A stretch of 64,000 bases of DNA from an uncultured Bacteroidales bacterium (GTDB lineage Bacteria > Bacteroidota > Bacteroidia > Bacteroidales > UBA932): positions 1 through 64,000 of the forward strand of contig CAMVKH010000008.1 in the NCBI GenBank assembly GCA_947168065.1, given 5' to 3'. The notes below the pieces were generated by a model. It saw only the letters and a program-made list of their open reading frames with translations, did not search any database and was not told where the DNA came from. Shown here piece by piece: positions 27,962-61,139 of the stretch. A program made the translations under genes and the position numbers. Position 1 is the stretch's first letter. Each line of letters begins with the position of its first letter.

Positions 27962-28798
27962 ATGAAAATTTGCGTTATTGGAACCGGTACGATGGCCAAG
28001 GGAATCGTGAAGGCTTTTGCCACCAAGATGCCCGTCGTCATGAAAAGCCGCACACAGGCCAGCCTTGACAAGGCCATGGCTTCCATTTCGAAGGGCTACA
28101 GCAAGCTCGTCGAGAAGGAAAAGATTACCCAGGAGAAGATGAACGCCATTATGGCGAACATCACGACCACCACGGACTATGCCACTTTCTCCGACGCTGA
28201 CCTCGTCATCGAGGCCGCTGTCGAGGACATGCAGCTCAAAAAAGATGTCTTCACCGAACTGGACGGCATCTGCAAGCCCGAGACGGTCTTCGCCACCAAC
28301 AGCAGCTCGCTGAGCATCACCGAGATCGCCGCCTGCACGAAGCGTCCGGCCCAGTTCATCGGCATGCACTTCTTCAATCCGGCCGACCGCATGGCCCTTG
28401 TCGAGGTGATCCGCGGCCAGCTGACCAGCGATGAAGTCACCAAGTGCGTCATCGACCTGGCCACCTCCATCGGCAAGCAGCCCGTCGAGGTGAAGGAAGC
28501 TCCGGGCTTCGTGGTCAACCGCATCCTCATCCCGATGATCAACGAGGCAGTCGGCATCCTGGCCGACGGCATCGCCACCGCTGAAGACATCGACAAGTGC
28601 ATGATGCTCGGCGCCAACCATCCGATGGGCCCGCTGGCGCTCGCCGACCTGATCGGCAACGATGTCAACCTGGCCATCATGGAAGTCCTCTACAAGGAAT
28701 TCGGTGATCCGAAGTATCGTCCGCACCCGCTGCTCCGCAAGATGGTGCGTGCCGGCCTGCTCGGCCGCAAGACCGGAGAAGGTTTCTACAAGTATTAA
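27962..28798 (+). CDS. hbd: 3-Hydroxybutyryl-CoA dehydrogenase
   Basis: The 278-residue enzyme reduces acetoacetyl-CoA with NAD(P)H. The Rossmann motif GTGTMAKGI starts at residue 7. The catalytic His is in [11 protein letters not shown] near 140, and [17 protein letters not shown] is near 182. ATG 27962 fits the family start; an in-frame ATG ten codons earlier would add an atypical leader. It leads into bcd after a 21-base gap. Confidence 0.94.
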
Positions 28799-28819
28799 CA
28801 GAAGAACCCCGAACGAACT

Positions 28820-29983
28820 ATGAATTTCAATCTCAACAAAACGCAGGAGCTGTTCCGCCAGATGATCCGCGAGTTCGCCGAAAAGGAGGTCAAGCCGCTG
28901 GCCGCCGAGATCGACGAGCAGGAACGCTTCCCCCAGGAGACGGTCGACAAGATGGCCAAGCTCGGCATCTTCGGCATTCCCGTCCCCAAGCAGTACGGTG
29001 GTGCCGGTGGCGACAACATCATGTATTCGATTGCAGTCGAGGAGCTTTCGCGCTGCTGCGCCACGACGGGTGTCGTGGTATCGGCCCACACGTCCCTCTG
29101 CATGTCCCCGATCCTCCAGTTCGGTACGGAGGAGCAGAAGATGAAATATGTTCCCAAGCTTGCTTCCGGCGAGTGGATCGGCGCTTTCGGCCTGACCGAG
29201 CCCAACGCCGGTACCGATGCCGCCGGCCAGCAGACCACGGCTGTGCCGGACGGTGAGGAATGGGTGATCAACGGCAACAAGATCTTCATCACCAACGCCG
29301 GTCACGCCGACGTGTACATCGTCATCGCCATGACCGACAAGAGCCTCGGCACGAAAGGCATCTCCGCCTTCATCGTGGAAGCCACGACCCCGGGCTTCTC
29401 CATCGGCAAGAAAGAGCTGAAGATGGGTATCCGCGGCAGTGCCACGGCCGAGCTCATTTTCAACAACGTGCGTGTCCCGAAGGCCAATCTGCTCGGCAAG
29501 GTGGGCGAGGGCTTCAAGATCGCGATGATGACCCTCGACGGCGGCCGTATCGGCATCGCCTCGCAGGCACTCGGCATCGCCCAGGGCTCCCTCGACGAGA
29601 CTGTCAAGTACACCAAGGAGCGCAAGCAGTTCGGCAAGAAGATCGCCCAGTTCCAGAACACGCAGTTCCAGATGGCCGACCTCAAGACCAAGATCGAGGC
29701 CGCGCGCCTGCTGGTGCGCAGCGCTGCCTTCCGCGAGGACGAGCACACGGCCAATCCGCGCGTGAACTTCTCGGCCGACGCCGCGATGGCGAAACTCTAC
29801 GCTGCCGAAGTGGCCATGGAAGTGACCACCAAGTGCGTCCAGTTCCACGGCGGTTACGGATACACCCGTGAGTATCCGGTGGAGCGCATGATGCGCGACG
29901 CCAAGATCACGGAGATCTATGAAGGTACCTCCGAGGTCCAGCGCATGGTCATCGCAGGTAAATTGTTCGGTAAAATCAAGTAG
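28820..29983 (+). CDS. bcd: Butyryl-CoA dehydrogenase (short-chain acyl-CoA dehydrogenase)
   Basis: A 387-residue flavoprotein that reduces crotonyl-CoA to butyryl-CoA. It has the family's AFGLTEPNAGTDAAGQ near 122, FITNAGHADVYIV near 152, and the catalytic glutamate in IYEGTSEVQRM near 367. With the etfBA genes immediately downstream it probably forms a Bcd-Etf complex, which in anaerobes can bifurcate electrons to ferredoxin; bifurcation is inferred from context. Confidence 0.95.
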   Translation: MNFNLNKTQELFRQMIREFAEKEVKPLAAEIDEQERFPQETVDKMAKLGIFGIPVPKQYGGAGGDNIMYSIAVEELSRCCATTGVVVSAHTSLCMSPILQFGTEEQKMKYVPKLASGEWIGAFGLTEPNAGTDAAGQQTTAVPDGEEWVINGNKIFITNAGHADVYIVIAMTDKSLGTKGISAFIVEATTPGFSIGKKELKMGIRGSATAELIFNNVRVPKANLLGKVGEGFKIAMMTLDGGRIGIASQALGIAQGSLDETVKYTKERKQFGKKIAQFQNTQFQMADLKTKIEAARLLVRSAAFREDEHTANPRVNFSADAAMAKLYAAEVAMEVTTKCVQFHGGYGYTREYPVERMMRDAKITEIYEGTSEVQRMVIAGKLFGKIK

Positions 29984-29995
29984 GAGGGCCCCGAG

Positions 29996-30781
29996 ATGAA
30001 AATTTTAGTCTGTATCAAGCAAGTTCCCGATACGACCGAGATCAAGATCGATCCGGTTACCAAGACCCTGGTCCGCGAGGGCGTTCCCGCCATCATGAAC
30101 CCGGACGACAAGGGCGGTCTTGAATTCGCCCTGCAGCTCAAGGACAAGTTCGGTGCTGAAGTGACCGTCGTGACCATGGGTATCCCCGCCGCGGAAATCA
30201 TTCTGCGCGAGGCATTTGCCATGGGTGCCGACCGCGCCATCCTGCTGACCGACCGCAAGCTCGGCGGCGCCGACACGCTGGCAACTTCCAAGGCGCTGGC
30301 CGGTGTGGCCCGTCAGCTCGATTGGGACCTGATCATCGCCGGCCGCCAGGCCATCGACGGTGACACCGCACAGGTGGGCCCGGAGATTTCCGAGCACCTG
30401 GGCATTCCGCAGATTTCGTATGTAGCCGGTTTGGAATACGACGCGGCTTCGAAGAAATTCACGGTAACCAAGGAAACCGAAGACGGCTGCCAGATCCTCG
30501 AATTCCAGGGCAAGGCCCTACTGACCTGCCTGGCCTCCGCCGTGAAGCCGCGCTACATGAGCGTGGGCGGCATCGTGGATGCCTACGGCAAGGAAGTCGA
30601 GGTGTGGGGCGCCGACCGCATTGACGTGCCGGAGACCGAACTCGGCCTGAAAGGCTCGCCGACCAAGGTGGTCAAGTCGTTCACCAAGGAACTCAAGGAA
30701 CCCGGCCAGGTCCACGAAGTGGACGCTGAAGAGGCCGTGGAACTGATTGTTGCCAAACTTAAGGAGAAACACATCATCTAA
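29996..30781 (+). CDS. etfB: Electron transfer flavoprotein, beta subunit
   Basis: A 261-residue protein starting KILVCIKQVPDTTEIKID, which is diagnostic for EtfB, with GRQAIDGDTAQVGP near 120 for nucleotide binding. It partners EtfA and Bcd. It starts 12 bases after bcd and ends 20 bases before etfA. Confidence 0.95.
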   Translation: MKILVCIKQVPDTTEIKIDPVTKTLVREGVPAIMNPDDKGGLEFALQLKDKFGAEVTVVTMGIPAAEIILREAFAMGADRAILLTDRKLGGADTLATSKALAGVARQLDWDLIIAGRQAIDGDTAQVGPEISEHLGIPQISYVAGLEYDAASKKFTVTKETEDGCQILEFQGKALLTCLASAVKPRYMSVGGIVDAYGKEVEVWGADRIDVPETELGLKGSPTKVVKSFTKELKEPGQVHEVDAEEAVELIVAKLKEKHII

Positions 30782-35131: not shown

Positions 35132-36337
35132 ATGGAAGAACCCAAAGAAATCCCGGTACTCCTGCTGACCGGCTACCTGGGCAGCGGAAAAACCACCCTG
35201 GTCAATCAGATCCTGAACAATCGCAAAGGAATACGCTTTGCGGTGATTGTCAATGACTTGGGAGAAGTTAACATTGATGCCGACCTCATCCAGAAAGGCG
35301 GTGTGGTGGGCAAGAAGGACGACAGTCTGGTGGCTCTCCAGAACGGCTGCATCTGCTGCACGCTGAAGACCGACCTGATCGAGCAACTCTGCGACATCAC
35401 TTCGCGCCAGACCTTCGACTACATCGTGATCGAGGCCAGCGGCATCTGCGAGCCGGAGCCCATCGCCCAGACCATCTGCTCGATTCCCGCCCTGGGCTAT
35501 GCCTATGTGAAGAACGGCATCCCCGTGCTCGACTGCATCGTGACCGTGGTCGACGCCCTGCGCATGCGCGACGAGTTCGCCGTGGGCGAGGCCCTGAAGA
35601 AGCCGCACATCGAGGAAGACGACATCGAGAACCTGGTGATCCAGCAGATCGAGTTCTGCAACATCGTGCTGCTCAACAAGGCGTCCGAAGTGACGCCGGA
35701 GGAACTGGGCCGCATCCGTGCCATCGTGCGCACGCTGCAGCCCAAGGCCCGGATCATCGAATGTGACTACGGCCGGATCGAACTCGAGGAAATCCTCGAC
35801 ACGGGCCTGTTCCAGTTCGACGAAGTGGCTTCTTCAGCTGCCTGGATCCAGGAGGTGGAGCATCACGACGACGATGATGACGACGAAGACGAGGAACACG
35901 ACCACGATCATGACGAGCACGGCCACCATCACCATCATCACCACGATCATGACGAAGGAGAGGCCGAGGAATACGGCATCGGCACGTTCGTCTATCAGGC
36001 GCGCAGGCCCTTCGACCTCAACGCGTTCGACAACTTCGTGGCGAAGAAATGGCCCAAAAACGTGATCCGCGCCAAGGGCATCTGCTACTTCAGCGAAGAG
36101 TTCGACACCTGCTACCTTTTCGAGCAGGCAGGGCGCCAGTTCGTGCTCCGCAATGTGGGACAGTGGTTTGCCACCATGCCAGAGGATGAACTCATCGAGA
36201 AGCTGCGCGAACAGCCCGAACTGCTGCACGACTGGGACCGCACCTATGGCGACCGCATGCAGAAACTGGTCTTCATCGGCCAGCACCTCGATGCGGACTT
36301 CATCCGCGCGGAATTGGACAAATGTCTGTTTGAATGA
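35132..36337 (+). CDS. CobW/COG0523 family GTPase with Asp/His-rich insert
   Basis: A 401-residue G3E GTPase, probably a metal chaperone or zinc-transferase type. It has a P-loop GYLGSGKTT (14-22), the metal-binding GCICCTL with Cys73, Cys75 and Cys76, and an NKASEV guanine-specificity motif near 180. A run of about 35 Asp, Glu and His residues (about 243-277) is suited to binding zinc or nickel. The C-terminal CobW_C domain follows (GIGTFVYQARRPFD). The ATG directly follows the previous stop. No zinc-responsive operator was identified. Confidence 0.92.
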   Translation: MEEPKEIPVLLLTGYLGSGKTTLVNQILNNRKGIRFAVIVNDLGEVNIDADLIQKGGVVGKKDDSLVALQNGCICCTLKTDLIEQLCDITSRQTFDYIVIEASGICEPEPIAQTICSIPALGYAYVKNGIPVLDCIVTVVDALRMRDEFAVGEALKKPHIEEDDIENLVIQQIEFCNIVLLNKASEVTPEELGRIRAIVRTLQPKARIIECDYGRIELEEILDTGLFQFDEVASSAAWIQEVEHHDDDDDDEDEEHDHDHDEHGHHHHHHHDHDEGEAEEYGIGTFVYQARRPFDLNAFDNFVAKKWPKNVIRAKGICYFSEEFDTCYLFEQAGRQFVLRNVGQWFATMPEDELIEKLREQPELLHDWDRTYGDRMQKLVFIGQHLDADFIRAELDKCLFE

Positions 36338-55696: not shown

Positions 55697-55788
55697 GGGC
55701 AATTCCTTTAAATCGGCCTCAAAAATACAACAAATATGGCCTCGGTGTTTTGAATAATGCGCATTTTTCATTAACTTGCAGAATTACA

Positions 55789-56463
55789 ATGGAAGAAATT
55801 AAAGTCATCGAAATCAAGAAGAGCGTCTTTGCCGACAACGACAAGGATGCGGACCTGCTCCGGCAGGAACTTAAGCAAAAAGGTACATACTTGCTGAACG
55901 TCATGTCGTCGCCCGGCAGCGGCAAGACCACGACGCTCATCCAGACCATCAACCGCCTTAAGGACAAGCTCCGTATCGCGGTGATGGAAGCCGATATCGA
56001 CGGCGACGTGGATGCGGTGAAGATCAAGGAAGCCACCGGCATACCCTCCATCCAGCTCCATACGGGCGGCATGTGCCACCTCGACGCCGAGATGACCCGT
56101 CAGGGCCTCGACAACCTGGCCGCGGGAGAAGCCGACCTGGTGATTCTGGAAAATGTGGGTAACCTCGTATGCCCGGCCGAGTTCGATACGGGCAGCTGCC
56201 GCAACGCCATGATCCTCTCTGTTCCGGAAGGCCACGACAAACCCCTGAAATACCCGCTCATGTTCTCTGTCTGCGACGTGGTGGTCATCAACAAGATGGA
56301 CGTCCTGCCGTACTTCGATTTCGACATGGACAAATGCAAGGAGTATATCCGCCTGCGCAATCCCCGGGCCCGTGTCATCCCCATCTGCGCCAAGAGCGGG
56401 GAAGGGGTCGACGTTTTTGCGGAGTGGCTCCTGCAGGAAGTCAAACAGTGGAAACAAGCTTAA
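55789..56463 (+). CDS. hypB: HypB, nickel-inserting GTPase
   Basis: HypB is the GTPase that helps deliver nickel to [NiFe]-hydrogenase, and in some organisms to urease. The 224-residue product has the P-loop VMSSPGSGKTTTLI near 40, EADIDGDVDA near 66, the G-domain metal site GGMCHLDA near 93, and VVINKMDVLPYFDFD near 165. It lacks the N-terminal CXXCGC or His-rich nickel storage stretch. It starts the hypB-oxidoreductase-hypA set, with 18 bases to the next gene. No hydrogenase subunit is visible. Confidence 0.94.
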   Translation: MEEIKVIEIKKSVFADNDKDADLLRQELKQKGTYLLNVMSSPGSGKTTTLIQTINRLKDKLRIAVMEADIDGDVDAVKIKEATGIPSIQLHTGGMCHLDAEMTRQGLDNLAAGEADLVILENVGNLVCPAEFDTGSCRNAMILSVPEGHDKPLKYPLMFSVCDVVVINKMDVLPYFDFDMDKCKEYIRLRNPRARVIPICAKSGEGVDVFAEWLLQEVKQWKQA

Positions 56464-56481
56464 ACTTAAATACCTGTCTAT

Positions 56482-59307
56482 ATGCCTGAGATGTCCAAAA
56501 AGTTTGTCCCCAAGCACCTGGGCGACAAGAACCCGAATCCCAAGCTCCTGAAATTCGTCCGCCACGTCACGGACCGTGTCCCCGGCAAGATCAAGATGAC
56601 CACCGAAGCCCCGGAATACTGGGGCCTGGCCTGCATCTTCGAAGACGAGATGGACGCAGTCACGCGCGAAGCCTCGCTCGACCTGCTGCTGGACATGCTG
56701 CCGAAGAACTTCCTGAAAGTGCGGCAGCACCATCCTTTCGCCGAGCTGAAGGCGTGGAACGATAAAAAGCACTATACGCCCGACGACGCCTCCTTCCAGG
56801 CACTGCTCGATAAGTTGTCCTACTTCGGCATGGTCGAATATGACTATGGCGACAAATACACGAAGGATGGTCCGATTCCGGGCACGACCTACGAGCCGAA
56901 GGACCGCATCTACTGGGTGCCGCTCTTTGTGCCGGGCAGTGCCGAATACACCAATATGAACACGGACCTGATGGACCGCCATCCGGAGCTGGCCATGTTC
57001 TTCGAGCGCATGACCTTCCTGCCGCTGGAGAAGATCACCCCCATGATCCCTATGGGCGGCGCTGGCATCGGCATGCACGTCATCCCCGTGGAGAAGGCCA
57101 TCTCCATGGAGAACCAGACCATGGACATCGAGCACCTGTCGTACTGGCTCAAGCGCTACGAAGGGCACCTGGGCGTGGGCATCTGCTCCTGCCGCTACGG
57201 CCGCAAGAAGATGGACGAGGGCTGCGCCGACGACTACCGCGACTGGTGCATCGGCGTGGGCGACATGGCCGACTATTGCGCCGAGACCGGCCGCGGCCAT
57301 TACATCACCTACGACGAGGCGATGGCCATCCTGAAGAAGGCCGAGGACCACGGCTTCGTGCATCAGGTCACGAACATCGACGGCGAAGGCAAGATCTTCG
57401 CCATCTGCAACTGCAACGTCAAGATATGCAACGCGCTGCGCACCTCGCAGCTCTTCAATACGCCGAACCTCTCCCGCAGTGCCTACGTGGCCCGCGTGGA
57501 GCCCGAGAAATGCGTCGCCTGCGGCCGCTGTGTGGAATACTGCCCGGCCGGTGCGGTGAAGCTCGGCCAGAAGCTCTGTACGAAGAGCGGACCGCAGACC
57601 TATCCCAAGCAGGAACTGCCCGACGCGGCGAAGTGGGGCCCGCACAAGTGGAACGAGGACTACCGCGACCGCAACCGCATCAACTGCTATCCCACGGGTA
57701 CGGCTCCCTGCAAGACGGCCTGCCCGGCGCACATCGCTGTCCAGGGCTACCTGAAAAAGGCGGCGGAAGGCAAGTATACCGAAGCGCTGGAGCTCATCAA
57801 ACGCGAGAATCCGTTCCCGGCGGTGTGCGGCCGTGTCTGCAACCGCCGTTGCGAGGATGCCTGTACCCGCGGCACTATCGACCAGCCCATCGCCATCGAC
57901 GCGGTGAAGAAATTCATCGCCGACCAGGACCTGAAGGCTGAGACACGCTTCGTACCGGAGGTCAACATCTGCTCGAACGTGCAGGATCGCTGGGAGGAGA
58001 AGATCGCCATCATCGGCGGCGGCCCTGCCGGCCTGAGCTGTGCCTATTACCTCGCTACCATGGGCTACAAGCCCACCGTCTTTGAGAAGAACGCCGAACC
58101 GGGCGGCATGCTCCGCTACGGCATCCCGTCCTATAAACTGGAGAAGGACGTGGTCGCAGCAGAGATCGACGTGATGCGCGAGATCGGCGTGGAGATCAAG
58201 ACGGGTGTTGAAGTAGGGAAGGACGTGACGATCGCCGGCCTGCGCGAACAGGGCTACAAGGGATTCTATGTGGCCATCGGCTGCCAGGGCGGCCGGCTCC
58301 CGGGCATTCCGGGCGAGACGCTCGCAGGCACTACCACGGCCATCGACTTCCTGCGTGAAGCCAATACCGGCAAGGTGCCCGTCAAGGGCAATGTAGTAGT
58401 GGTCGGCGGCGGCAACGTGGCCATCGACGCCGCCCGTGTCGCTAAGCGCAGCGGCGCCGCGTCCGTCACCATGCTTTCGCTCGAGACGGAAGACATCATG
58501 CCCGCGTCGAAGGAAGAACGCCGCGAGGCCCGCGAAGATGGCGTGGTGATCAACCCCGGCTGGGGCCCGAAGGAAGTGCTGGGCGAGGACAAGGTGTCCG
58601 GCATCGTGTTCAAGAAATGCACCTCCGTCTTCAACGCGGAGCATAAGTTTGCTCCGGAATACGATGAAAAAGAGCTGATTACGCTCGATGCGGACCTGGT
58701 GATCTTTGCCATCGGACAGACGGTCGTGCTGAAGGATCTTCTCAAAGACACGAAGGTGGAATTCTTCCGCGGCGTGTATCCTGTGGCCGACAAGCTGACC
58801 TACCAGACCGCCGAACCGGATATCTTCGTCGGCGGCGACGTCTTCACCGGCCCGAAGTTCGCCATCGACGCGATCGCGGCGGGCAAGGAGGCGGCAGAGA
58901 GTCTGCACCGCTTCGTGCAGCACGGTCACATGACCATCGGCCGCAACCGCCGGGATTTCATCGAACTCAACAAGGAGGATATCCGGGTGGAATCCTACGA
59001 CAACGGCTCCCGCCAGGTGGAAGGCCACGACGATGCGAAGGGTCCGTTCCGCGAGTACACACTGGCTCTGACCGAGGAGCAGGTGCGCAAGGAAACAGCC
59101 CGCTGCCTGAGCTGCGGCGCTTCCGTGGTGGACGAGAACCGCTGCATCGGCTGCGGCGTCTGTACCACCAAGTGCGGCTTCGACGCCATCCACCTGCATC
59201 GCGAGCACCCCGAGGCCAGCAACATGGTGGTCTCGGAAGACAAGTTCAGCGCGATCCTGCCGTACATGATGAAACGAACCGGAAAGATTCTGTTCAAGAA
59301 AAAATAA
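56482..59307 (+). CDS. Large FeS flavoprotein oxidoreductase with GltD-like core
   Basis: A 941-residue multi-cofactor enzyme. Residues 1-330 form an N-terminal domain of unknown family with many cysteines (CSCRYGRKKMDEGC near 235, CNCNVKIC near 312). A [4Fe-4S] motif CVACGRCVEYCP follows near 344. A GltD-type cysteine domain (CKTACPAHIAVQGYLKKA, then CGRVCNRRCEDAC) lies near 410-460. The FAD motif IAIIGGGPAGLSCAYYLA is near 508, the NAD(P) motif VVVVGGGNVAIDAARVAK near 638, and a final FeS pair CLSCG...CIGCGVCTTKCGF near 874-900. Electrons would pass between NAD(P)H and an unknown partner. The hypA and hypB genes on both sides suggest a link to nickel; that link is inference. Confidence 0.88.
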   Translation: MPEMSKKFVPKHLGDKNPNPKLLKFVRHVTDRVPGKIKMTTEAPEYWGLACIFEDEMDAVTREASLDLLLDMLPKNFLKVRQHHPFAELKAWNDKKHYTPDDASFQALLDKLSYFGMVEYDYGDKYTKDGPIPGTTYEPKDRIYWVPLFVPGSAEYTNMNTDLMDRHPELAMFFERMTFLPLEKITPMIPMGGAGIGMHVIPVEKAISMENQTMDIEHLSYWLKRYEGHLGVGICSCRYGRKKMDEGCADDYRDWCIGVGDMADYCAETGRGHYITYDEAMAILKKAEDHGFVHQVTNIDGEGKIFAICNCNVKICNALRTSQLFNTPNLSRSAYVARVEPEKCVACGRCVEYCPAGAVKLGQKLCTKSGPQTYPKQELPDAAKWGPHKWNEDYRDRNRINCYPTGTAPCKTACPAHIAVQGYLKKAAEGKYTEALELIKRENPFPAVCGRVCNRRCEDACTRGTIDQPIAIDAVKKFIADQDLKAETRFVPEVNICSNVQDRWEEKIAIIGGGPAGLSCAYYLATMGYKPTVFEKNAEPGGMLRYGIPSYKLEKDVVAAEIDVMREIGVEIKTGVEVGKDVTIAGLREQGYKGFYVAIGCQGGRLPGIPGETLAGTTTAIDFLREANTGKVPVKGNVVVVGGGNVAIDAARVAKRSGAASVTMLSLETEDIMPASKEERREAREDGVVINPGWGPKEVLGEDKVSGIVFKKCTSVFNAEHKFAPEYDEKELITLDADLVIFAIGQTVVLKDLLKDTKVEFFRGVYPVADKLTYQTAEPDIFVGGDVFTGPKFAIDAIAAGKEAAESLHRFVQHGHMTIGRNRRDFIELNKEDIRVESYDNGSRQVEGHDDAKGPFREYTLALTEEQVRKETARCLSCGASVVDENRCIGCGVCTTKCGFDAIHLHREHPEASNMVVSEDKFSAILPYMMKRTGKILFKKK

Positions 59308-59308
59308 A

Positions 59309-59335
59309 CGCCATTCCGGGCTGGACCCGGGATCT
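59309..59335 (+). repeat. Palindromic repeat copy 2
   Basis: CCGGG (59316-59320) and CCCGG (59326-59330) with a five-base loop, in a 27-base block matching the repeat at 54499-54525 at 22 positions. It fills the whole gap between the oxidoreductase and hypA, with no T-run after it, so it is not a terminator here. Confidence 0.65.
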
Positions 59336-59340
59336 CCGCC

Positions 59341-59685
59341 ATGCACGAACTGGGCATTGTCTTCTACATCATCCGCGACGTCAAGCAGGCGGCCGCGGAG
59401 AACAACGTGGAGCACGTCTCCGGCGTGGTGATGAATATCGGCGAAGTGTCCACCATCGTTCCGCAGTACCTCACGGACTGCTGGCGCTGGGCCGCCGACA
59501 AGGAAGACCTGCTGCGCGGAAGCGAACTGAAGATCCATATCCTTCCGGCTGTGACCCATTGCGGGGACTGTGGCCGGGACTATGCGACGGTCAAGCACGG
59601 CCGCAACTGTCCGCACTGCAACAGCCCGAATACCTGGCTTCTTCACGGCAACGAAGTGGAGATCAAAGAAATAGAAGTATCATAA
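59341..59685 (+). CDS. hypA: HypA, nickel metallochaperone
   Basis: A 114-residue nickel chaperone. The nickel-binding start MHELGI includes His2. The zinc site is formed by CGDCGRDY near 77 and CPHCNSP near 94. It delivers nickel with HypB to a hydrogenase or other enzyme. It lies between the large oxidoreductase and two membrane protein genes, all on one strand with short gaps. Confidence 0.94.
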   Translation: MHELGIVFYIIRDVKQAAAENNVEHVSGVVMNIGEVSTIVPQYLTDCWRWAADKEDLLRGSELKIHILPAVTHCGDCGRDYATVKHGRNCPHCNSPNTWLLHGNEVEIKEIEVS

Positions 59686-59706
59686 AAACAATAAAAAGTT
59701 CAGTAT

Positions 59707-60015
59707 ATGTCTTGTTTTCTCGTTCCTATGACCCAGGCTGTGGTCACCAGCGTCATTCGCAAGCATCAGGCGAAATCCATCGACAGCCCGGAGGCCTCGG
59801 CCTTCAAGCGCCATCTTCCCACGCTGGAGAAGATGCTCTGGGGCGGCACGGTGGTCCTCCTCGTCGATCATGCCATCCATGGTGAACTGTTTACCTTCAG
59901 CCTGCGCGAACTGCTGACCGTCGGCGTGCCGATGTCGGTTGTCCTGACTGCCATCTGGGCTGTGTATGCCTATGTGAAGGAGCACCGCCGCAAGGTGGCG
60001 CCGGCTGCGAAATAG
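59707..60015 (+). CDS. Small two-helix membrane protein
   Basis: A 102-residue protein with hydrophobic helices at about 44-62 (LWGGTVVLLVDHAIHGE) and 70-92 (VGVPMSVVLTAIWAVYAYV), and a basic C-terminus. A conserved-looking His pair lies in DHAIHG. I do not recognise the family. It sits 21 bases after hypA and 23 bases before the DUF5692 gene, so it is probably a membrane partner in the same system. Confidence 0.72.
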   Translation: MSCFLVPMTQAVVTSVIRKHQAKSIDSPEASAFKRHLPTLEKMLWGGTVVLLVDHAIHGELFTFSLRELLTVGVPMSVVLTAIWAVYAYVKEHRRKVAPAAK

Positions 60016-60038
60016 TCATTACCTAAAACACATATCGT

Positions 60039-61139
60039 ATGTTCTTCCAAGTTTACGGGGCGAATGCCCTGTCCCAGTGGATCATGCTGCTCGTGGTCCT
60101 GCTGGGCCTCATTCTCCTGAATGAGTTTGCACGCCGTACCAAGTTCGGCGGCGCCATCATGTTTTTCGTAATCCCGGTCCTGCTGACCGCCTATTTCCTC
60201 GCCATCTGGATCGGTGTCCGGAGCGGTGCGCAGTGGGCGCTGGAGAACCAGACACACGTCTACATGCAGGGCTGGTTCCATTATGCCAAGCTCTATGCGG
60301 CCACCGCCGGGTGCATCGGCTTCATGATGATCAAGTACAAGTGGGGCATCGGCGCCAAGCACTGGTTCAAGCCTTTCCCGTTCATCATCGTGGCCATCAA
60401 CATCCTGATTGCCTGCGTCTCCGACTTCGAGAGCGCCGTGATGGGATGGAACAAGTGGTGGCTCACCTCTGAAGGCGTCTGGCAGTATGGCGGCTGGCAC
60501 AATGTGATGAACGGCGTGGCTGGTCTGTTCAACATCTTCTGCATGACGGCCTGGTGGAGCGTCTACTCCTCCAAGAACAAGCAGGATATGATCTGGCCCG
60601 ATATGACCTGGGTCTACATCGTCATCTACGACATCTGGAACTTCGCCTACACCTACAACTGCCTGCCTACGCACTCCTGGTACTGCGGTGTCGCGCTGCT
60701 GCTCGCTCCGACCATCGCGGCTCTCCTCTGGAACCGCGGCGGCTGGATCCAGAACCGCGCCAATACGCTGGCCATCTGGTGTATGTTCGCACAGGTGTTC
60801 CCGCTCTTCCAGGAGACCTTCAAGAATGGCCAGCAGTGGTTCTCGTGGGCCACGCTGCCCGTCCTCTATCCGGAAGGGACGGCCACGATCGAAAAGCTGT
60901 ACGCTGCCGGCGGACAGGCTGCTGTCGATGGTATCGTGGGTACCACGGTGGATCCTTCCGTTGTGGCGGCCAATCCTTCGATGATGGTCTTTATCAGCGC
61001 CCTGGCCCTCGTGACCAATGTCGTCGCCCTCTGCTACATCATCGTCGTATCGAAGAAGCGGCACATCAACCCGTACAAGCAGGATGTGTTCGTCAACCAG
61101 AAGTACTACAAGGACGCCATGGCTCGCGCCGACGTGTAA
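60039..61139 (+). CDS. DUF5692 family integral membrane protein
   Basis: A 366-residue protein with about nine hydrophobic helices and many Trp and Tyr residues (WNKWWLTSEGVWQYGGWHN near 148, YIVIYDIWNFAYTYNCLP near 200). It matches my recollection of DUF5692, a membrane family without an assigned role. It ends the hypB-to-DUF5692 run before a strong terminator. Aromatic and His residues in the helices could bind quinone or metal; this is speculation. Confidence 0.78.
   Translation: MFFQVYGANALSQWIMLLVVLLGLILLNEFARRTKFGGAIMFFVIPVLLTAYFLAIWIGVRSGAQWALENQTHVYMQGWFHYAKLYAATAGCIGFMMIKYKWGIGAKHWFKPFPFIIVAINILIACVSDFESAVMGWNKWWLTSEGVWQYGGWHNVMNGVAGLFNIFCMTAWWSVYSSKNKQDMIWPDMTWVYIVIYDIWNFAYTYNCLPTHSWYCGVALLLAPTIAALLWNRGGWIQNRANTLAIWCMFAQVFPLFQETFKNGQQWFSWATLPVLYPEGTATIEKLYAAGGQAAVDGIVGTTVDPSVVAANPSMMVFISALALVTNVVALCYIIVVSKKRHINPYKQDVFVNQKYYKDAMARADV

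Follow-up and report, generated by a model that had tools for sequence, protein, structure and literature searches.

A conserved five-gene set of ruminant-gut Bacteroidales that resembles a proposed anaerobic C=C-hydrogenating system with its own HypA and HypB

Introduction

The nickel chaperones HypA and HypB are known from the maturation of urease. They are likewise known from the maturation of [NiFe]-hydrogenases, and they also accompany IsrA, the putative isoprene reductase of Acetobacterium wieringae (Kronen et al. 2023, PMC10134865). In the isr operon, isrA lies together with two hypA genes, hypB and a gene for a 4Fe-4S ferredoxin; the operon is upregulated with isoprene, and the A. wieringae genome is described as having neither a [NiFe]-hydrogenase nor hypCDEF (PMC10134865). 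The activity was assigned to IsrA from proteomics and strain comparison, not with the purified enzyme (PMC10134865), and strain Y is reported to convert isoprene and 1,3-butadiene and not ethene, propene or fumarate (PMC9765523). The published account places a proposed nickel site of IsrA at a Cys6 cluster with CxC motifs at 180/182 and 254/256 and ferredoxin-type regions at 289-300 and 848-877, and it assigns the nickel sites of the chaperones to H2 in HypA and to the CHXnC motif in HypB (PMC10134865). The same work groups 988 IsrA homologs in "clade 9," with Bacteroidetes among their holders and with neighbourhood frequencies of 0.73 for HypA, 0.56 for HypB and 0.40 for DUF5692; oleate hydratase neighbours two of the Acetobacterium homologs (PMC10134865). 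The adjacency of HypA, HypB and DUF5692 and the nickel hypothesis are thus already in print for IsrA. In the open-licence PMC literature, DUF5692 is named only in that paper; PMC12613782 and PMC12583861, in the portions available, concern other hydrogenases or limonene.

Here we analyze a five-gene set in the window, that is, the whole stretch of 64,000 nucleotides studied from an uncultured Bacteroidales bacterium. The initial annotation had read it as an orphan nickel maturation set without a hydrogenase, forming a functional unit and perhaps a new electron-transfer complex. The carrier appears to be a gut bacterium of the ruminant type, and the set resembles the proposed system for anaerobic C=C hydrogenation outlined above.

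Results

The set consists of hypB (positions 55789-56463, 224 aa), an oxidoreductase gene that we call ox (56482-59307, 941 aa), hypA (59341-59685, 114 aa), a gene for a small membrane protein (59707-60015, 102 aa) and a gene for a polytopic membrane protein of the DUF5692 family (60039-61139, 366 aa). All five annotated open reading frames (ORFs) were present on the + strand, and the tight spacing ascribed to them was borne out, with gaps of 18, 33, 21 and 23 bp in order. The bordering genes, nagA-like upstream and LolA-like downstream, both lie on the strand opposite to the set. Long minus-strand ORFs that overlap it (for example, 55771-59646) were taken as spurious because the + strand genes are kept as proteins in relatives, and a promoter and terminator scan gave no excess over shuffled sequences. 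The source genome is a 2.02-Mb assembly that is 76.9% complete. Elsewhere in the window, positions 35132-36337 encode a second, unrelated GTPase of the CobW/HypB type with a CobW_C domain, possibly a chaperone for zinc or another metal. Positions 27962-30781 hold in a row a likely 3-hydroxybutyryl-CoA dehydrogenase, an acyl-CoA dehydrogenase (by Pfam) and ETF beta, likely a butyrate-type pathway, with the first and third genes judged from sequence.

By its Pfam and NCBIfam domains, Ox is an IsrA-like NAD(P)H/FAD/FeS oxidoreductase, with Pyr_redox_2, Fer4_20 and Fer4 as its Pfam content. The N-terminal ∼330 residues have no Pfam match even at an E value of 1 and include a cysteine-rich site at residues 235-316 (57184..57429) made up of C235xC237, C248, C256, C309xC311 and C316. 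This is followed by a [4Fe-4S] CxxCxxCxxxC motif at residues 344-354 (57511..57543; PF00037), by Fer4_20 and a GltD-like FAD/NAD(P)H-binding core at residues 402-801 (57685..58884; PF14691 at 402-486 and PF07992 at 507-801) and by a C-terminal [4Fe-4S] motif formed by C888, C891, C894 and C898 (59143..59175), all encoded on the + strand. Both the seven N-terminal cysteines and the four of the 344-354 motif are invariant in 90/90 distinct orthologs, and the C-terminal four are kept in 89/90. When the N-terminus was compared with the PDB by sequence, only ferredoxin-like matches around residues 322-385 were obtained, and its predicted model was poor (pLDDT of 51). PADLOC gave only a weak match of Ox, at residues 507-543, and no relative was found in the viral contigs searched. 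A separate frame of 337 codons, found elsewhere in the phylum in another lineage (genome G721, locus L054, positions 1027-2040), encodes an FeS protein that resembles the N-terminal portion of Ox down to CxCR and CNC motifs.

Like IsrA as published, Ox is a protein of about 900 residues in which an unassigned N-terminus precedes a [4Fe-4S] motif, Fer4_20, the FAD/NAD(P)H core and a C-terminal [4Fe-4S] motif (PMC10134865). Going by the published positions and not by an alignment, the CxC-to-CxC spacing is 74 residues in both proteins (235 to 309 in Ox, 180 to 254 in IsrA), and the [4Fe-4S] motif begins 109 residues past the first CxC in both (at 344 and 289, respectively). Judged by the published description, Ox therefore has the clade 9 architecture and the spacing of the two CxC motifs with further cysteines, and its residues 235-316 may be considered a candidate counterpart of the proposed cluster V, or nickel site, of IsrA. 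Ox differs from IsrA in its length (941 versus 901 residues), in its occurrence in Bacteroidales rather than in an acetogen and in being known from sequence alone. The set shares with the isr operon the presence of HypA and HypB beside the oxidoreductase and the absence of a [NiFe]-hydrogenase large subunit. Unlike that operon as described, it begins with hypB and includes two membrane proteins; with a single hypA and no separate ferredoxin gene, it is not an isr operon proper.

The two chaperones were readily assigned. HypB, a nickel-chaperone GTPase with a P-loop, scored 234.3 bits with TIGR00073 (cut-off of 121.2), and HypA, the nickel metallochaperone, scored 105.3 bits with PF01155 (gathering score of 28.9). 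HypA missed the TIGR00100 equivalog (70 versus 88.1 bits) and must therefore be regarded as divergent. Residues C96, H97 and C128 of HypB, whose positions were assigned by the CHxnC motif, are kept in 91/91 distinct orthologs and are probable Ni ligands. In HypA, the nickel residue H2 and the zinc site C74, C77, C90 and C93 are kept in 88/88 distinct orthologs.

Gene order around ox is conserved. In our family sample of 299 genomes, ox is carried by 44, which belong to three genera. Among the 30 ox loci listed, the window's own counted, hypB adjoins ox in every case and hypA in 29, the exception ending at a contig edge. Scanning named species with aligned N-termini of Ox (400 residues) gave 343 matching stretches, of which the best 80 were examined; this set overlaps the unnamed one, several loci coming from the same genomes, and within it L137 and L154 represent one genome. 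Where the contig has room, these best 80 of 343 contain hypB in 77/77 cases, hypA in 68/68, the small protein in 58/66 and DUF5692 in 58/60 (L135 and L151 do not have it at its usual position), with median distances between match ends of 27, 17, 35 and 44 bp. This conserved order supports the functional unit that the initial annotation had proposed. The best 80 loci are for the most part from MAGs of ruminant-gut Bacteroidales. To judge by their titles, 31 of them come from a ruminant host or rumen, 36 more bear RUG names, which we take to stand for rumen uncultured genomes, and 13 name no source of this kind. The commonest flanking family recurs in 6 of these 80 loci, a count that underestimates recurring neighbours because the longest ORFs, many of them antisense, were used. 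The set is rearranged in L063, with strands altered and the genes still together. In a Subdoligranulum variabile record (L155), hypB, ox, hypA and DUF5692 follow in the same order, with identities of 72%, 62%, 56% and 55%, respectively, and the small protein is absent; the unit therefore crosses phyla.

The presence of HypA tracks that of ox. HypA exceeded the cut-off in 41 of the 44 ox-bearing genomes of the family and in none of 10 congeners for which no ox is listed (Fisher P = 1e-8, kinship ignored); in the window's own genus alone, the counts were 15/17 and 0/10 (P = 8e-6, kinship ignored). In the three ox-bearing genomes that miss HypA (G388, G421 and G426), ox is cut at contig ends. Two further family genomes, G008 and G126, for which the listing gives no ox status, also have no HypA.

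We looked for other clients of these chaperones. The [NiFe]-hydrogenase large subunit (PF00374) and HypD (PF01924), the latter being the one of HypC to HypF that the search covered, were found in 0/44 ox-bearing genomes, the window's (G000) included, and HypD was also absent from all 38 well-assembled genomes given. The window's genome, at 76.9% completeness, thus shows neither of the two genes that define a [NiFe]-hydrogenase maturation system, nor does it have a match for urease alpha. The only genome of 60 with either the large subunit or HypD was G051, from outside the family, which has both, as well as HypA and a hyp-like cluster. For urease alpha, 12 of the 60 genomes had partial matches, of which 3 exceeded the cut-off; the ORFs concerned are 518-601 aa long. 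These short matches fall within positions 54-109 of the 121-position profile and are therefore read as other amidohydrolases, which we consider probable. The initial annotation had named as the outcome that would count against it a complete hydrogenase with hypCDEF elsewhere in the genome and a gene order not conserved in relatives; what emerged is the opposite, in that large subunit and HypD are absent in 44/44 and the order is conserved, so that, as far as these two genes show, the reading as an orphan nickel set without hydrogenase stands.

A different contig of the window's genome does encode an NADH-dependent [FeFe]-hydrogenase, of type A6. Such a hydrogenase exceeded the cut-off in 20/44 ox-bearing genomes compared with 8/10 congeners without ox. 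Being commoner without ox, it leaves H2 as no necessary donor, and obligatory H2 coupling was rejected. A direct search nevertheless found hydB/hydA in the fetched flanks of four of the best 80 named loci (L075, L086, L133 and L135), and hydA shares a contig with ox, at a distance of ∼12 kb or less, in 5/17 ox-bearing genomes of the window's genus (G247, G365, G448, G460 and G463), two of which are the named loci L086 and L133. In L135 (8274-13938), the end of hypA overlaps by 4 bp a run of hydB-hydA-hydC that encodes an NADH-dependent [FeFe]-hydrogenase, and hydF lies antisense; no small protein was found at this locus, where DUF5692 has a different position. Oleate hydratase was found in 0/44 ox-bearing genomes, which ruled out a fatty-acid link by way of this enzyme and leaves no indication of fatty acids in our data.

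The two membrane proteins are less closely tied to the set. DUF5692 matched PF18948 with 430.5 bits (gathering score of 27); no sequence relative of it was found in the PDB, and its predicted model (pLDDT of 63) had no PDB fold match at an E value of ≤0.001. It matches 9 of 198 genomes of the order, 8 over the cut-off. In two genomes of another family, G001 (L003) and G120 (L004), DUF5692 is 77 and 82% identical to the window's, compared with 44 and 48% for QueA; HypA is absent from both, and no ox or hyp gene occurs in the DNA fetched around their DUF5692, which may reflect either independent transfer or loss of the remaining genes. A stand-alone DUF5692 gene lies beside a Crp/Fnr-like gene in G080 (L002) and G051 (L006), which belong to two different families (the domain was tested for G080 only), and a Latilactobacillus plasmid carries DUF5692 in a stretch where neither hyp nor ox is annotated. 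DUF5692 thus exists in other genomes independently of the remaining genes. The small protein, whose membrane location was judged from its sequence, had no Pfam or NCBIfam match at an E value of ≤0.001; its C3 and H55 are kept in 70/70 orthologs. Relatives with 34-35% identity are encoded on plasmids of Ruminococcus albus and Eubacterium eligens. On the R. albus 7 plasmid pRUMAL02 (NC_014825.1, L161, 3849-6683), the relative directly follows cooS, the gene for CO dehydrogenase; a second small protein comes next after the relative both there and on the E. eligens plasmid (L162), which has no cooS. CO dehydrogenase is a nickel enzyme, and a link of the small-protein family to another nickel/FeS redox enzyme is possible. 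The inclusion of the membrane proteins in the unit thus held for most loci (58/60 and 58/66) and was weakened by the occurrence of DUF5692 alone elsewhere and by the occasional lack of the small protein.

The identities of Ox suggest horizontal transfer. FBPase was discarded as a transfer marker, being present in 16/43 genomes only, all of the window's genus; QueA was therefore used instead. Within the genus (11 genomes), median identities to the window are 89% for Ox and 76% for QueA. Against the other genera of the family (19 genomes with both genes), the median for Ox is 87% (range, 78 to 89), whereas that for QueA is 58% (56 to 62). The almost flat identity of Ox beside the steep drop of QueA suggests that ox was transferred. 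The alternative is that ox merely evolves more slowly, but this would hardly explain why G483, of another genus, has 89% identity in Ox and 56% in QueA when G383, of the same genus, has 81% and 69%. Loci titled Paludibacteraceae (L138, L143 and L146) show 87% identity in the N-terminal region of Ox. Across the phylum, this N-terminus was matched at an E value of ≤1e-15 in 2/395 genomes, the window's own and one with a partial match that lies in a stand-alone protein.

Discussion

We conclude that the five-gene set is a real, conserved operon of a known and biochemically uncharacterized kind. The published IsrA proposal already deals with the puzzle of orphan hyp genes (PMC10134865), and the new electron-transfer complex offered in the initial annotation is not needed, because the architecture of Ox is that of the published IsrA family. 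What is apparently new is the fixed five-gene form in ruminant Bacteroidales and its apparent horizontal spread: neither such an order nor a small membrane protein was found in the sections of PMC10134865 consulted, and the word "rumen" has no occurrence in its main text. Our analysis adds the co-occurrence of HypA with ox, the invariant metal residues, the evidence of transfer and a testable class of substrates.

The explanation that we favor, and regard as fairly likely, is that the five genes form an alkene-reductase operon of the IsrA type (Kronen "clade 9") with dedicated HypA and HypB, from which we infer the use of nickel, the substrate, the direction of the reaction and the part played by the membrane. 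HypB and HypA would act as dedicated chaperones that insert nickel at the N-terminal cysteine-rich site of Ox, and we infer that Ox is nickel dependent. NAD(P)H would give hydride to FAD, and the [4Fe-4S] clusters would relay the electrons to the N-terminal site. There, a lipophilic compound would be hydrogenated, the likeliest case being the reduction of a conjugated diene to a monoene. The presence of two membrane proteins suggests that the substrate is lipophilic; DUF5692 and the small protein would probably handle or present this membrane-dissolved compound or else anchor Ox. In the rumen, the hydrogenation of dienes could serve as an electron sink. Conjugated linoleate and plant terpenoids are candidate substrates in the ruminant gut, and the conversion of conjugated linoleate to vaccenate is ascribed in part to uncultured rumen bacteria. 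A more specific version, in which Ox is a nickel-dependent hydrogenator of conjugated C=C bonds in plant lipids, carrying out the step from conjugated linoleate to vaccenate or one in terpenoid conversion with the substrate presented by the membrane proteins, is put forward only tentatively.

Alternatively, Ox might belong with the Nfn/DsrL/GltD enzymes, as an NAD(P)H:acceptor oxidoreductase that transfers or bifurcates electrons, is connected to the membrane by DUF5692 and the small protein and reduces no alkene. The C-terminal 540 residues of Ox do belong to that superfamily, its PDB relatives are Nfn, GltD, DPD and formate/molybdopterin oxidoreductase chains, and hydB/hydA occur near ox in some loci, as described above. 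Its best NCBIfam match is PRK12771 (NF009410), yet this match remained below the cut-off (439.5 versus 516 bits), as did that to TIGR01316 (272.3 versus 471.75 bits), so that tests for the GltD, NfnB and DsrL subfamilies failed, and the likeness to these flavoprotein subunits lies at residues ∼400-810. Such a role would leave unexplained both the tie to HypA and HypB and the cysteine-rich N-terminal ∼330 residues that agree with IsrA, and the hydrogenase is not positively associated with ox. We know of no GltD, NfnB or DsrL family with an N-terminal part of the Ox type or with HypAB, and we therefore consider this alternative rather unlikely.

A role of HypAB in delivering a metal other than nickel, such as zinc or iron, to Ox appears improbable: HypA does fall below the TIGR00100 equivalog cut-off, but H2 of HypA and C96, H97 and C128 of HypB, which are invariant, correspond to the published nickel sites (PMC10134865). 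Least plausible, and rejected on co-occurrence and linkage, is that HypA and HypB, given their known functions in hydrogenase and urease maturation, are remnants or general metallochaperones for an enzyme elsewhere that lie beside ox by chance; the hyp operons of [NiFe]-hydrogenases share HypA and HypB with the set, whereas HypD and the large subunit were not found here, the linkage is kept in the best 80 named loci, and the few urease alpha matches, none in the window's genome, are probably other amidohydrolases.

If the set is indeed an IsrA-type operon, rumen Bacteroidales would hold a dedicated, horizontally moving module for alkene reduction, which would use reducing power otherwise open to methanogens and alter the fats or terpenoids that reach the animal. 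Its occurrence across bacteria of the ruminant gut hints that it may take part in the hydrogenation of fats or terpenes. Two questions become testable: whether IsrA and its relatives form a new nickel-enzyme class, and which of the uncultured bacteria in the rumen carry out the hydrogenation of conjugated dienes. Being small and conserved, the operon lends itself to expression in a laboratory host. Were the tentative reading of Ox as a hydrogenator of plant lipids to hold, alkene reduction would join the short list of nickel reactions, and genes would be named for the conjugated-linoleate or terpenoid step in the rumen.
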